A DNA stretch of 54,838 nt from Burkholderiaceae bacterium (lineage in GTDB: Bacteria > Pseudomonadota > Gammaproteobacteria > Burkholderiales > Burkholderiaceae_D): contig JAMNXS010000012.1 in the NCBI GenBank assembly GCA_023653025.1, forward strand, positions 1 to 54,838. The letters run 5' to 3'. This document shows, piece by piece, positions 23,500-28,937 of the stretch; position 1 is the first letter of the stretch, and each line of letters starts with the position of its first letter. The notes under the pieces were generated by a model. That model had not been told where the DNA came from, searched no databases, and saw only the letters and a list, made by a program, of their open reading frames with translations. A program made the position numbers and the translations under genes.

Positions 23500-24982
23500 G
23501 CTGGCGGCGGATGTAGGCCGGCAGCTCGCCGGCCGTCGCGCCGACCGGGCCGATGCCGTCGTCGACCATCGCATCGGCCGCCGCGCCATGTAGCCATACC
23601 GCGGCCAGCGCGGCCTCCCGCACTGGCAGGCCGCGCGCGAGCAGTGCTCCGCACAGGCCGGACAGCACGTCGCCGCTGCCGGCCGTGGCCAGCGCCGGAT
23701 TGCCGGTCGTGTTGATCGCGCAGCACCCGTCGGGCGCCGCAATGACAGAACCCGAGCCCTTCAGAATCACCGTCGCGCCGAAGCGCTGCGCGATGCCCGA
23801 TGCTGCGCGCAGGCGGTCGGCCTGCACGCCTGCCGCGTCGCAGCCCAGCAGTCGCGCGGCCTCCAGCGGGTGCGGGGTCAGCAGAGCGGGCGCGCGGCGT
23901 TGCGCAAGGCGTGCCTGCAGCGCCGGCTCCTCGGCCAGCAAGTTCAGCGCGTCCGCGTCGAGCACCAGCGGCAACGCGCAGCCGAGCGTGCGTGCGACCA
24001 GATCGACTGCCGTGCGCGACCGGCCGAGACCGGGGCCGGCGACCGCTGCGCCACTACCGAGCGCGACGCCCTGCGCAGCGCGGCACATCAGTTCCGGATG
24101 GACGGGATCGAAGGCCGGCACGACGCCGGCGAAGGCGGCAAAGACGCGGCCCGCGCCGGCCAGCGCCGCCGTGCGTGCCGCAAGAAGCACTGCGCCGCCC
24201 ATACCGTCTGCGCCGCCGATGATCGTGACGTCGCCGAAGCTGCCCTTGTGCGATGCATGCCGGCGTGCGGCGAAGGCGCCGGGGAAATGGCCGGGGGTGT
24301 TCAGTTCGGCCACGGGCGGCGGGAACAGCGCGGCATCGACGCCCAGCCTTTCGACGACGACGCTGCCTGCGCAATCGCGGCCGTGGCCGGTATGCAGCCC
24401 GGGCTTGTCGCCGATGAAGGTGACGGTCTGCCGCACGCGCAGCGCGGTGCCGCCGCCGGCCAGCGCACCGGTGTCGGCGTCGAGCCCGCTTGGCACATCG
24501 ATCGCCAGCACCGGCAGGTCGCGCCGGTTCAGCGCATCGATCACGCCGGCCACGGGCGCGGCGATGGCGCGCGCAAGGCCGATGCCGAACAGGCCGTCGA
24601 TCGCGATCGACCACGGCTGCCCGAGCTCGGCCTCGGCGACGAATACGACGCCCTGTTCCAAGGCGCGCGCGTGCGCGCTGCGCGCATCGGCAGGCAAACG
24701 GTGTGCGTCGGCAGGCATCCAGACCCGCACCGGAATACGCTGCAGTGCCAGCTGGGCAGCCGCTTCGAGCGCGTCGCCGCCGTTGTTGCCGGGGCCGGCC
24801 AGCACCAGCACCGGTGCGCTCGAGCCGCAGCCGGCAAACATGCGCGCGGCCGCGGAGGCGGTGACGGCGCCGGCGCGCTGCATCAGCGTGCCGGGCGGTA
24901 GGGTAGCCATGGCCGTCTGTTCGACGGCACGCAGCTGCACGATGCTGTACAGGGGGCGCGTCTCAGCGCACGCGGTCGCCAT
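23483..24982 (-). CDS. nnr: Bifunctional NAD(P)H-hydrate epimerase / ADP-dependent NAD(P)H-hydrate dehydratase
   Basis: The 499-residue repair enzyme restores hydrated NADH and NADPH. The N-terminal YjeF domain (about 1-215, with GPGNNGGDALEAA and IDVPSGLDADTG) epimerises R- and S-NAD(P)HX. The C-terminal ribokinase-like domain (about 225-499, with GSFGDVTIIGGADGMGGA and ATAGSGDVLSG) dehydrates the S form using ADP. The order and length match Nnr fusions. Its start overlaps the last 20 bp of dadA, and its end overlaps the MGS-like gene by 17 bp, so it is tightly packed and probably translated with dadA. Confidence 0.95.
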   Translation of the reverse strand: MATACAETRPLYSIVQLRAVEQTAMATLPPGTLMQRAGAVTASAAARMFAGCGSSAPVLVLAGPGNNGGDALEAAAQLALQRIPVRVWMPADAHRLPADARSAHARALEQGVVFVAEAELGQPWSIAIDGLFGIGLARAIAAPVAGVIDALNRRDLPVLAIDVPSGLDADTGALAGGGTALRVRQTVTFIGDKPGLHTGHGRDCAGSVVVERLGVDAALFPPPVAELNTPGHFPGAFAARRHASHKGSFGDVTIIGGADGMGGAVLLAARTAALAGAGRVFAAFAGVVPAFDPVHPELMCRAAQGVALGSGAAVAGPGLGRSRTAVDLVARTLGCALPLVLDADALNLLAEEPALQARLAQRRAPALLTPHPLEAARLLGCDAAGVQADRLRAASGIAQRFGATVILKGSGSVIAAPDGCCAINTTGNPALATAGSGDVLSGLCGALLARGLPVREAALAAVWLHGAAADAMVDDGIGPVGATAGELPAYIRRQLNRRP

Positions 24983-26219
24983 GGCGGGACAGGGTCAGGC
25001 CGTCGATATCGATTTCCGGGCGCCGGCCCGAGATCACGTCGGCCACCAGCTTGCCGCAGCCGGCGGCCATGCCCCAGGCGGCGGCGCCGTGGCCGGCATT
25101 GACGAAAACGTTGGCATGCCGGGTCGGGCCGATCAGCGGCACGCCCTCGGGCAGCATGGCGACCGGTCCGCACCAGAAGCTGGCCGTCCGGTAGTTCGCC
25201 GCGCTCGGGAACCAGTCGTCGGCCACCTTGACCAGGGTGTCGACGGCTTTCGGATGGAGATCGAAATTCGACGAGCCAAGTTCGGCGCAGCCAGCAACGC
25301 GGATGCGCTTGCCGAGCCGGGTCAGGGCGATGCGGTAGGTGTCATCGAACACGGCCACCTGCGGCGCCAGTTCGTATTCCTGGATCGCGGTCGATGCCGA
25401 ATAGACCTTGACCGGGTACATCGGCACCGATACGCCGGCACTTTTCAGCAGGCGGCCGCTGCCGGCGCCGGCGGCGATGACTACGGCATCCGCGTCGATC
25501 GACTGGCCGGCGACGCGCAGGCTGACGCCGCCCAGTTCGGCCTGCACGGCCTCGACATCGCAATTGAAATGGAACTCCACCCCGCGATCCTGCGCGAGGG
25601 TGCGCAATTGCCGCACGAACAGCGGGCAGTTGCCGGCCCAGTCATCGGGCATGAACATCGCCGAATGGAAAGGCGTGTCGGACGACAGCGCGGGCTCGAG
25701 CTGGCGCGCGGCTTCGGCGTCGAGCAATTCGTTGCGCGAGCCGGCCTCGCCCAGCGCCTCCATCAGCGGCTGCGCCAGTTCCTGGTCCTTCTTGCTGCGG
25801 AAGATTGTCATCACGCCGCTGCGCTGCTGGAAATCCAGCTCCTGCTTCTGCACCAGATGCTGCATCAGTTCCTGGCTGAACAGCGCGAGGCGCTGCAGCC
25901 GTTGCTGGTTCTGCCGAAAACGGTCGGTCGCGCTCTCGCCGATGGCGCGTCGCAGCCAGCGCCACATGGCCGGCTCGAAGCGCGCGCTGAAGGCCATCAG
26001 GGATTCGGTGCGGAACAGCATCGACAGCACGCGTCCCGGCGTGCCCGGCATCGACCACGGACGCAATGCGGCCGGGCCCATCAGATCCAAGTTGCCGAAA
26101 CTGGCCTCCTGGGCGACGTTGCCATAGCGCTCGACGACGGCCACCTCATGTCCTGCTTCAGCGAGGTAATAGGCAGTGCACACCCCGACGACACCGCCGC
26201 CGATCACAGCTACACGCAT
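24963..26219 (-). CDS. dadA: D-amino-acid dehydrogenase small subunit DadA
   Basis: The 418-residue FAD-dependent, membrane-associated dehydrogenase oxidatively deaminates D-amino acids such as D-alanine. The N-terminal FAD-binding motif is VIGGGVVGVCTAYYLAEAG, and the C-terminal GHGAAAWGMAAGCGKLVADVI matches the end of the family. ATG at 26219 puts the dinucleotide fold at the very N-terminus as in E. coli DadA; the open frame continues upstream but the leader contains hairpins. With alr at 585 the window holds both a maker and a consumer of D-alanine, though not adjacent. It precedes nnr on the same strand. Confidence 0.92.
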   Translation of the reverse strand: MRVAVIGGGVVGVCTAYYLAEAGHEVAVVERYGNVAQEASFGNLDLMGPAALRPWSMPGTPGRVLSMLFRTESLMAFSARFEPAMWRWLRRAIGESATDRFRQNQQRLQRLALFSQELMQHLVQKQELDFQQRSGVMTIFRSKKDQELAQPLMEALGEAGSRNELLDAEAARQLEPALSSDTPFHSAMFMPDDWAGNCPLFVRQLRTLAQDRGVEFHFNCDVEAVQAELGGVSLRVAGQSIDADAVVIAAGAGSGRLLKSAGVSVPMYPVKVYSASTAIQEYELAPQVAVFDDTYRIALTRLGKRIRVAGCAELGSSNFDLHPKAVDTLVKVADDWFPSAANYRTASFWCGPVAMLPEGVPLIGPTRHANVFVNAGHGAAAWGMAAGCGKLVADVISGRRPEIDIDGLTLSRHGDRVR

Positions 26220-26586
26220 GGGACTCCAGAACTTGAAAACCTCATGGCCGGCCTGCCGCAGCCATGGAGCAGGTCTATGCCTGCGGGATTGAAGAAATCC
26301 CGCATAGGGTATCCGCAAACAGTTGTTTGAACAATCAGCTTCGATGATCGCGCATCGATGCGGTGCGTGCACCAATCCAGCGTCTCGGCTTAGTGCGGTG
26401 AGGAGAATTCCTAGGACGGTTTAGTTCACGGCGCGCAACACTCTCACCCTGCTTGCACCGAGGGCTCAAACCCGACAAACCCGCCAGTGTTGGCATGGCA
26501 ATTGCAAAAAGAGAAACCGGCAACGCACTCCGAGCAGGTGCGAGGCTGAACCGATCCAGGCCATCCGAGACAGGGAGGAAGTCATC
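26220..26586. promoter_or_regulatory. Divergent control region between dadA and an unknown gene
   Basis: These 367 bp hold no gene but several sites. TGCGGGATT (26282-26290) and AATCCCGCA (26296-26304) form a 9-bp hairpin around GAAGA in the dadA leader. TTGTTTGAACAA (26323-26334) is an inverted repeat. TCGATG-N6-CATCGA (26341-26358) and GGTGCGTGCACC (26362-26373) are dyads lying 117-149 bp upstream of a sigma-54 promoter at 26490-26506, at a distance usual for enhancer-binding protein sites. A strong ribosome-binding site GGGAGGAAG is at 26573-26581. Confidence 0.6.
26490..26506 (+). promoter_or_regulatory. Sigma-54 (RpoN) promoter
   Basis: TTGGCATGGCAATTGCA matches the RpoN consensus YTGGCACGRNNNTTGCW at every defined base except one (T for C after TTGGCA). 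The -24 GG and -12 GC are exactly 10 bp apart. Transcription would start near 26516-26518 and reach the gene at 26587 after a leader of about 70 nt. Such promoters need an activator bound upstream, and dyads at 26341-26373 are candidates for that. Confidence 0.75.
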
Positions 26587-27435
26587 ATGTTGAGAGCATC
26601 TTCGTTCACCCAGAGCCATGGCGTCCGCCATGCAGCGGCTGTTCATGGAAGCCGTGCCGCACACCGCGCGATCCCGCGCGTCGCGCTCCGGGGTACGGCC
26701 ACGACCTCCGACCCGATGCACGAGTTCCGGGTGCAATGGGCGCTTGAGCGGCAGAAAGCGATGCAGATCGACCTCTCCACACTCGACCGCAACCCGCGCG
26801 CAACCGACACGACGCTGGCCGAACCATGGCGGACGATCTTAGTCCCGAATCGCAGGCTCGAGTCGCTCAAGTATCACGACTATCCGGCACCCACCGGCCT
26901 CGGCCCCTTGTGGGGGATAGGCGAGTGTCGACCGGTGTCGAACTGCAACCCCATCGACGTCAATCCCGATGCTATCGATTCGGAACGCCAGACGCGCCGT
27001 CCGGGGGTGTATTCGTACCAGGGGCGTTTCGACAGGGTGGTTCGCGGCGCCTACGGCAACCGCAACTTCAAGTACCTGTATGCCCTCGACCACCGAGGGA
27101 TGCACATCGCGCGCGAAATGACGCCTTGCAAGGCCAGTTCGCGCGGCATCATCACGCACTCCATCCTGGTGGACCGCGGAGCGGCTGCCGGAGAAATTTT
27201 TTTCGATCTTGATGATGCGGGCAAGGTCTATGTCAATTACGGCTCGGCGCGGATTCCTATCGAAGACGTCTGGCAGGCAGAAAAGGTCGCGGAATTCGTG
27301 CTGGCGCTCGGCTACCACACCGTGGTGGCGATGATTCCCGATCGCGACCTGAAAAAGCATCCGTACGGGATGGGCGATCGCTACGGCAAAGACGTCGAGA
27401 ATTTAGTCTTCAAGCGGGAAACCGAAGCGCCCTGA
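26587..27435 (+). CDS. Hypothetical protein behind a sigma-54 promoter
   Basis: I do not recognise this 282-residue protein. The start is well supported by GGGAGGAAG 5 bp upstream. The first 40 or so residues are rich in Ala, Arg, His and Ser with no membrane segment or clear signal peptide, like a disordered leader. The middle has Trp/Pro/Cys-containing segments (TGLGPLWGIGECRPVSNCNP) and RPGVYSYQG. The C-terminal part has GEIFFDLDDAGKVYVNYGSARIP then EFVLALGYHTVVAM, which faintly resembles a C-terminal domain of exported or toxin-like proteins with a GE-strand-N-x-SGHY pattern; this is recollection, not a match I can test. It is divergent from dadA and ends 3 bp from convergent amidase. Confidence 0.75.
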   Translation: MLRASSFTQSHGVRHAAAVHGSRAAHRAIPRVALRGTATTSDPMHEFRVQWALERQKAMQIDLSTLDRNPRATDTTLAEPWRTILVPNRRLESLKYHDYPAPTGLGPLWGIGECRPVSNCNPIDVNPDAIDSERQTRRPGVYSYQGRFDRVVRGAYGNRNFKYLYALDHRGMHIAREMTPCKASSRGIITHSILVDRGAAAGEIFFDLDDAGKVYVNYGSARIPIEDVWQAEKVAEFVLALGYHTVVAMIPDRDLKKHPYGMGDRYGKDVENLVFKRETEAP

Positions 27436-27438
27436 TGA

Positions 27439-28731
27439 TCAATGGGCAAGCAGGTGTTCTACCGCCATCCCGATGGCCATCACCCGGGCATCGGTCATGG
27501 CCGGGCCTGCCACGCTCAGCCCGACGGGCAGGTCGCCATCTCGATGGCAGGGCAGCGACAGTGCGCAGCCGTCTAGCAGGTTGATGAGTGACGGATTGCG
27601 CAGCAGCAGGCGGTTGGCCTCGAAGAAGGCCTCGTCCGAGGCCAGCAGAGCTTCGGTGCGCGGCGCAACAATGGGCACGGTCGGCATCAGCATCGCATCG
27701 AAACCGCGCAGTGCGCGCTCGACCTGTGTGATCCATTCGCCGCGCGCGGCGCGCAGACGGCGCAAATCCTCAGCCGTGCTGCCTTCACCAAGCCGGATGC
27801 GCTGCGCCACCCGGTGGTCATAGCGCATTTCCGCGGCCGCCAGCAGCGACCGGTGCCACGCATAGGACTCGATCGGCGAGAAGCGATTGATCTCGCGAGC
27901 ATCGGCCAGCATCCTCATCGGCACTTCGATGATCTCGGCACCGGCGGCCGACAGCTTTGACAGGGTGGCCGTAAAGGCCTTGGCCACATGGTCGTCGATG
28001 TCATCCATCACCACGTCTTCCGGCACGGCGAACCGCAGTCCGTCGAGTGCGAGCGCCGGCGGCGACAGCGGTTGATCCGCGATGATGCTGTCGACGATCA
28101 GGCAGTCCGCGACACAGCCGGCAATCGGGCCGAGGGTGTCGAGCGTGGGCGACAGGGGGACCGTGCCGGCGGTCGGCATCCGCCGCATCGTCGGCTTGAA
28201 GCCGGCCAGGCCGCAGAGCGCCGCCGGAATGCGGATCGAGCCGCCGGTGTCGGATCCGATGGCGGCGACGCACAGGCCGGCGGCCACGGATACGCCCGCG
28301 CCGGAGGACGAGCCGCCCGGGATGCGTGCCGGATCGACCGGATTGGCGGGCGTGCCGTAATGCGGGTTGATGCCGACGCCGGAAAACGCGAACTCGGTCA
28401 TGTTGGTCTTGCCGACGACGGCCGCGCCCGCCGCGCGCAAGCGGGCCACGACCGGGGCATCGGCGGCTGCCGGCGGACGGCCCTCGAGCACGACCGAGCC
28501 GGCCAGCGTGGTCTCGCCGGCCACGTCGAGCAAGTCCTTGATCGATACCGGCAAGCCGGCCAGCGGCGAGACGGACTGGCCGGAGACGCGCATCACGTCG
28601 GCATGCGCGGCCGCTGCCAGCGCCTCGTCCCGGTACAGGCGCGTGAACACGGATTCGGACTGCAGCGCCCGGTCGAGGCTGTCATGCACGAGTTCGCGGC
28701 GGTTCTGGTCAGCGAGGTCGGAAATGGGCAT
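27439..28731 (-). CDS. Amidase-signature family hydrolase
   Basis: The 430-residue enzyme has the Ser-cisSer-Lys triad of the amidase signature family: Lys65 in VSIKDLLDVAG, Ser141 in PGGSSSGAG and Ser165 in GSDTGGSIR. It hydrolyses an amide bond, but the substrate is not evident. It is shorter than GatA, and with no gatB/gatC neighbours it is unlikely to be the tRNA amidotransferase subunit. ATG at 28731 starts MPISDLADQNRRELVHDSL, a plausible N-terminus; the frame stays open about 200 bp further upstream into low-complexity GC-rich sequence. It is divergent from purL. Confidence 0.88.
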   Translation of the reverse strand: MPISDLADQNRRELVHDSLDRALQSESVFTRLYRDEALAAAAHADVMRVSGQSVSPLAGLPVSIKDLLDVAGETTLAGSVVLEGRPPAAADAPVVARLRAAGAAVVGKTNMTEFAFSGVGINPHYGTPANPVDPARIPGGSSSGAGVSVAAGLCVAAIGSDTGGSIRIPAALCGLAGFKPTMRRMPTAGTVPLSPTLDTLGPIAGCVADCLIVDSIIADQPLSPPALALDGLRFAVPEDVVMDDIDDHVAKAFTATLSKLSAAGAEIIEVPMRMLADAREINRFSPIESYAWHRSLLAAAEMRYDHRVAQRIRLGEGSTAEDLRRLRAARGEWITQVERALRGFDAMLMPTVPIVAPRTEALLASDEAFFEANRLLLRNPSLINLLDGCALSLPCHRDGDLPVGLSVAGPAMTDARVMAIGMAVEHLLAH

Positions 28732-28937
28732 GGTATCGGGCCGCGGTCGGCTGACCGCCGAGCTTCGGCCATGCAGCTTCGGCCGTTGAGGCGGATTGGT
28801 TGATAGTTGACCAACGATACCACGCCCGGACGCAGCGGCCACAGGCCAGAGCCGGGGCCCGGCGCAGGCGCTGGCACGGGCGCTGGAATGGACACCGCAG
28901 CGGACGCTGTGACGGGGGCCGGCACGGACAGGCAAGG

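Follow-up and report, generated by a model that had tools for sequence, protein, structure and literature searches.

The regulatory signals and the product of an orphan gene

The locus studied here raises the question of which signal controls an orphan gene with an elaborate upstream region, and what its product might do. The gene occupies positions 26587..27435 on the forward strand of the window, i.e. the whole stretch of 54,838 nucleotides that was analysed, and encodes 282 amino acids, with a ribosome-binding site, GGGAGGA (26573..26579, forward strand), 7 bases 5' of its ATG. The initial annotation had described a sigma-54 promoter with two upstream dyads in front of a protein that it could not place. 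All of these elements, from the two dyads and the box to the ribosome-binding site and the frame of 282 codons, were found where it had put them.

The orphan gene is preceded by a conserved sigma-54 promoter

The -24/-12 box TTGGCATGGCAATTGCA (26490..26506, forward strand), identified by a consensus scan and by its conservation in relatives, is the sole zero-mismatch match in the window to YTGGCAYGNNNNTTGCW or TGGCAYGGNNNTTGCW, the degenerate sigma-54 consensus; matches with up to two mismatches are no commoner in the window than in shuffled sequences. In all 19 loci whose upstream DNA could be read, one of them in another genus, a sigma-54-type box precedes the orphan gene; for loci with a called start its distance to the start codon is 44-133 bp. 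We scored 17 loci, namely the window and 16 relatives, each over 200 bp 5' of the called start (L013 with no upstream DNA and L017 and L090 with no called start are not among them), and the best box reached 11-13 of 13 in all 17; of the 500 shuffles made for each locus, 0-1.0% reached as much. On the opposite strand these stretches scored 0-9. Contig C30 of genome G490 likewise terminates in a matching box, the gene of this genome being on another contig.

Most relatives keep an A-rich extension of the AAAAARRGAAA type directly downstream of the box (26507..26516, forward strand), the closest group (L008-L012) being without it. Scanning 21 genomes for the extended promoter with up to three mismatches yielded 20 matches, and the pattern read backwards yielded 5. 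Fourteen of the 20 are at the orphan gene, including the contig end in G490 and a second gene copy in G435, and the six others are near the chance rate, as the backward control gave 5. The interest of these six lies in the genes that follow them. Three keep GG and GC and lie 5' of UrtA, an MSMEG_0572/Sll0783 nitrogen-starvation gene and a FlrC-like gene; the three without the -24 GG comprise two identical matches, one of which was read and lies 5' of an ion-channel-like gene, and L143. RpoN itself is encoded on contig C103 (PF04552, 223.6 bits). Conservation of box and frame in relatives, on which the initial annotation had made its reading depend beforehand, was found for both, and together with the zero-mismatch box this argues strongly for a real, well-conserved sigma-54 promoter of the orphan gene.

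NtrC-like sites lie upstream of the promoter

The NtrC box consensus given in the available text of two publications (PMC8743547, PMC4987338) is TGCACCAnnnTGGTGCA, and the accessible part of a third (PMC5491218) gives no NtrC box. We identified an NtrC-like box, CGCATCGATGCGGTGCG, at 26351..26367 (forward strand), which scores 14.5 with an NtrC matrix (training sites 12.4-18.5), deviates from YGCACC-N5-GGTGCR at 3 of 12 positions and is the top matrix site of the whole window, located upstream of the orphan promoter. The dyad GGTGCGTGCACC (26362..26373, forward strand) consists of the right half of this box and the next TGCACC half-site, and a further GCACC half-site lies at 26455..26459 (forward strand), -36 from the -24 element. 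Both dyads had been noted to lie at enhancer-site distance. Of the two, GGTGCGTGCACC is conserved, one clade of relatives having it as RGTGCATGCACY and others as separated half-sites, whereas TCGATG-N6-CATCGA (26341..26358), which overlaps the NtrC-like box, is not conserved.

Half-sites of the GGTGC/GCACC type are strongly enriched, with 37 in 19 upstream regions (that of L024 being 7 bp long) compared to a Markov-shuffle mean of 6.6 and a maximum of 16 in 500 shuffles. Leaving the L024 region untrimmed gave 38 (shuffle mean 7.1, maximum 15), and thinning to 10 loci gave 16 (mean 3.9, maximum 10 of 500); the upstream regions of L010 and L090 have none. The half-sites also recur at defined positions: of 18 loci, 9 have RGTGCR at exactly -128 and 7 have it at -88, and YGCACY is found at -122 in 6/18 and at -152 in 4/18, much of this signal being supplied by the close kin L014-L018 and L026. 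The NtrC matrix, built on 10 sites outside the family and leaning to the consensus because these were the best consensus matches upstream of sigma-54 boxes, gave a family mean best score of 8.46. Shuffles averaged 3.8 (maximum 6.2 of 300), and stretches taken at random from these loci 3.2 (maximum 5.4 of 300). Taken singly, 6 of 18 upstream regions reach p <= 0.05 and 9 have p values of 0.16-0.42; the homologue in G332, a genome outside the genus, scores 5.5 (p 0.25). Most boxes of the family have one strong and one degenerate half. As GGTGC/GCACC matches the NtrC half-site, we classify the upstream sites as NtrC-like.

These sites point to nitrogen limitation as signal and to a known activator whose gene lies elsewhere in the genome, and from the upstream sequences we consider it likely that the orphan gene belongs to the NtrC/sigma-54 nitrogen-limitation regulon. 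NtrC is probably the activator and nitrogen limitation probably the signal, which would make the condition-specific control suggested by the initial annotation probable as well. Upon nitrogen shortage phosphorylated NtrC would bind the boxes some 90-155 bp upstream of the -24 element and loop to the sigma-54 polymerase waiting at 26490-26506, thereby opening the promoter, so that the single orphan gene would be transcribed. Such an arrangement would tie an undescribed protein family to a precise condition, nitrogen limitation.

Known NtrC/sigma-54 promoters of the glnA, glnK-amtB and glnHPQ type are alike in the -24/-12 box, the NtrC-type boxes about 90-155 bp upstream and the single transcription unit; the orphan gene differs from them in that its boxes are mostly half-degenerate and its product is unrelated to known nitrogen genes. 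In G000, G479 and G340, glnA is preceded by a sigma-54 box as well as by NtrC-like boxes (2-3 mismatches), and glnA of G141 has a weaker one with 4. The G568 gene for an MSMEG_0572/Sll0783 protein (TIGR04044) resembles the orphan gene in its extended sigma-54 promoter (3 mismatches) and likewise has an NtrC-like box, but the orphan protein does not match the TIGR04044 model. On contig C67 of the source genome a nitrate-transporter-like gene (L034, named by reading) carries a sigma-54 box and the NtrC-like box CGCACCATCAGAGTGCG.

NtrC and a FleQ-like protein as candidate activators

The source genome has 11 PF00158 matches, one of which is ClpB-like by reading, leaving ten enhancer-binding proteins. 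None of the matches is on the contig of the window, so that the earlier statement that no activator gene is nearby holds for this contig; the NtrC-like sites point to an activator encoded on contig C56. There NtrC (L038) is identified by TIGR01818 with 691 bits (cut-off 558.6), and a reciprocal best hit to it exists in each of the five further genomes compared, including G141, which lacks the orphan gene.

Another enhancer-binding protein might act instead, in particular the FleQ-like L037 encoded on a flagellar contig, which would place the orphan gene in a flagellar sigma-54 regulon. L037 has reciprocal best hits in G479, G340 and G457, all of which carry the orphan gene, and none in G141, which lacks the gene and keeps NtrC; this pattern, however, rests on one gene-negative genome, and G332 has a divergent homologue of the orphan gene with its own box yet no reciprocal L037 match. 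Sigma-54 boxes are present at flgB, flhA, fliL, fliC and an FlrC-like gene of the source genome, with two copies of GGTGC/GCACC each at flgB and fliC and none at the other three. When scored with the NtrC matrix, though, none of seven other sigma-54 promoters (six flagellar) reached 0.05, the p values ranging from 0.07 to 0.99. We regard control by L037 or another enhancer-binding protein as unlikely and favor NtrC.

The flagellar boxes are on contigs C22 and C118 (L029, L030, L031, L035, L036), 5' of flgB, flhA, fliL, the FlrC-like activator and flagellin (fliC), names being assigned by reading, and their sequences indicate that the source genome has a sigma-54 flagellar hierarchy, which is unusual for Burkholderiaceae. 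L109 of G340 is the orthologue of the FlrC-like L044 (74% identity), and L124 of G141 is nearest to L046 (36%). Like L037, an orthologue of L044 is missing from G141, and gene-positive G457 likewise shows none.

Distribution of the orphan gene

Of the 21 genomes of the genus, 18 carry the orphan gene, 17 detected by protein search and one, G519, in which the gene is split across two contig ends. A search of 294 genomes of the family matched 18, i.e. the 17 of the genus and G332, the only match among the 273 searched genomes that belong to the family but not to the genus. An order-wide search with a 15-row profile matched one of 399 genomes, the source genome itself, and a search with the protein matched 2 of 300, the second of which, in G152 (E 8e-4, two stops), was discarded as spurious. 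No relatives of the protein were found in the plasmids, phages (best E 2) or viral contigs searched. G141, of the same genus and 100% complete, has the amidase directly adjoining the dehydrogenase with the orphan gene missing, a clean absence through loss or because the gene was never gained. For G526 and G568 neither the orphan gene nor an orthologue of the neighboring amidase was found.

The gene-positive genomes of the genus each have a single orphan gene, and its place in the chromosome is constant; G435 and G539 have extra fragments. The copies L021 (G435) and L017 (G556) have an in-frame stop, and contig C100 of G435 bears another, partial copy; these oddities may be due to decay, to errors of assembly or to mixed bins. 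L025 of G539 is a contig-end fragment with a translation identical to the gene start of G425 (L010) and probably reflects a mixed bin.

The product has a variable basic tail and a conserved core

We scanned 15 members of the protein family against Pfam, NCBIfam, PHROGs and PADLOC and obtained no credible match, in agreement with the initial annotation, and literature searches showed nothing on the family among the papers listed; the family is undescribed in these libraries and listings. Stray matches of single members to an NCBIfam Rmt methyltransferase (E 0.0078) and a Pfam BldD-like model (E 0.1), as well as a match to phrog_4958 (E 0.008-0.01) seen for the window protein alone among the 15, were taken as chance, and the single match of a PDB profile search (E 0.55) was discarded.

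The relatives' proteins are 24-57% identical to the window protein over full length. The alignment comprised 15 sequences, with L016, L017, L021, L025 and L026 excluded as fragments, for in-frame stops or as an identical copy (L016 without special reason), and its invariant residues are concentrated in a conserved core (residues ~76-282) that follows a variable, basic tail (~1-75). The orphan protein evolves fast, with 27-65% identity to the window's across loci, compared to 63-85% for amidase, purL and dehydrogenase. Among seven pairs compared, dN was 0.33-0.86 for the tail and 0.11-0.28 for the core in the five more diverged ones, with dS of about 1 or more, and in the two closest pairs 0.05-0.06 and 0.02-0.06, respectively; dN was below dS in all seven. 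Retention of the promoter among relatives with proteins only 24-57% identical to the window's, combined with the rapid change of the N-terminal tail, points to a function that is useful and specific to this lineage of Burkholderiales.

All 16 members examined are basic over their first 45 residues (net charge +5 to +9); acidic residues are scarce by reading, and no hydrophobic stretch is apparent by eye. The initial annotation had considered an exported or effector-like protein. This basic segment, which evolves faster than the core, and the lack of a known family are features that an effector or toxin exported via a secretion system might have; the gene, however, occurs once per genome at its fixed locus in the genus, its product matches no toxin family, and neither an immunity partner nor a secretion gene was seen beside it in the 54.8-kb window, rendering this reading improbable. 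Most likely the product is cytoplasmic, with a compact core of the alpha/beta type preceded by a basic tail that is disordered. Structure models (mean pLDDT 40.9 for the full length protein, 53.6 for the core with a pTM of 0.61) are too weak to assign a function.

As a nitrogen-limitation protein the product might aid survival of nitrogen starvation by binding a partner, either an enzyme or a nucleic acid, which we offer as a tentative guess. Ornithine decarboxylase antizyme and GNAT-like folds may be among the closest known systems, the structure comparison having given antizyme/GNAT-like matches that serve as a lead only. The product could be a bacterial analogue of antizyme or of the small glutamine-synthetase inactivating factors, confined to the genus and induced by nitrogen starvation, the antizyme/GNAT-like core of which would bind an enzyme of nitrogen metabolism and restrain it, but we rate this specific version as very improbable.

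Neighboring genes and the divergent promoter

The orphan gene is flanked by a divergent D-amino-acid dehydrogenase gene (DadA-like, 24963..26219, reverse strand) and a convergent amidase gene (27439..28935, reverse strand). Wherever contigs reach, the order in the genus is dehydrogenase, orphan gene, amidase, purL, with the exception of five close relatives that keep the right side and for which the dehydrogenase was not found on the left within the DNA examined; in G332, outside the genus, the surroundings are different. That the GGTGC half-sites serve the divergent dehydrogenase rather than the orphan gene is hardly probable, for although most loci have them between the two promoters, GGTGC is retained at -112 to -130 in four of the five loci for which no adjoining dehydrogenase was found (L008, L009, L011 and L012; not L010), and glnA carries the same type of box.

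A scan for sigma-70 promoters listed no site across 26100-27700, nor did it list a conserved block at 26306..26334 (reverse strand) in which TTGTTC-N17-TACCCT can be discerned by eye. We dropped this block as an activator site, since a similar block persists in G141, the genome without the orphan gene, and for the same reason its sequence is read as a probable promoter driving the divergent D-amino-acid dehydrogenase gene.
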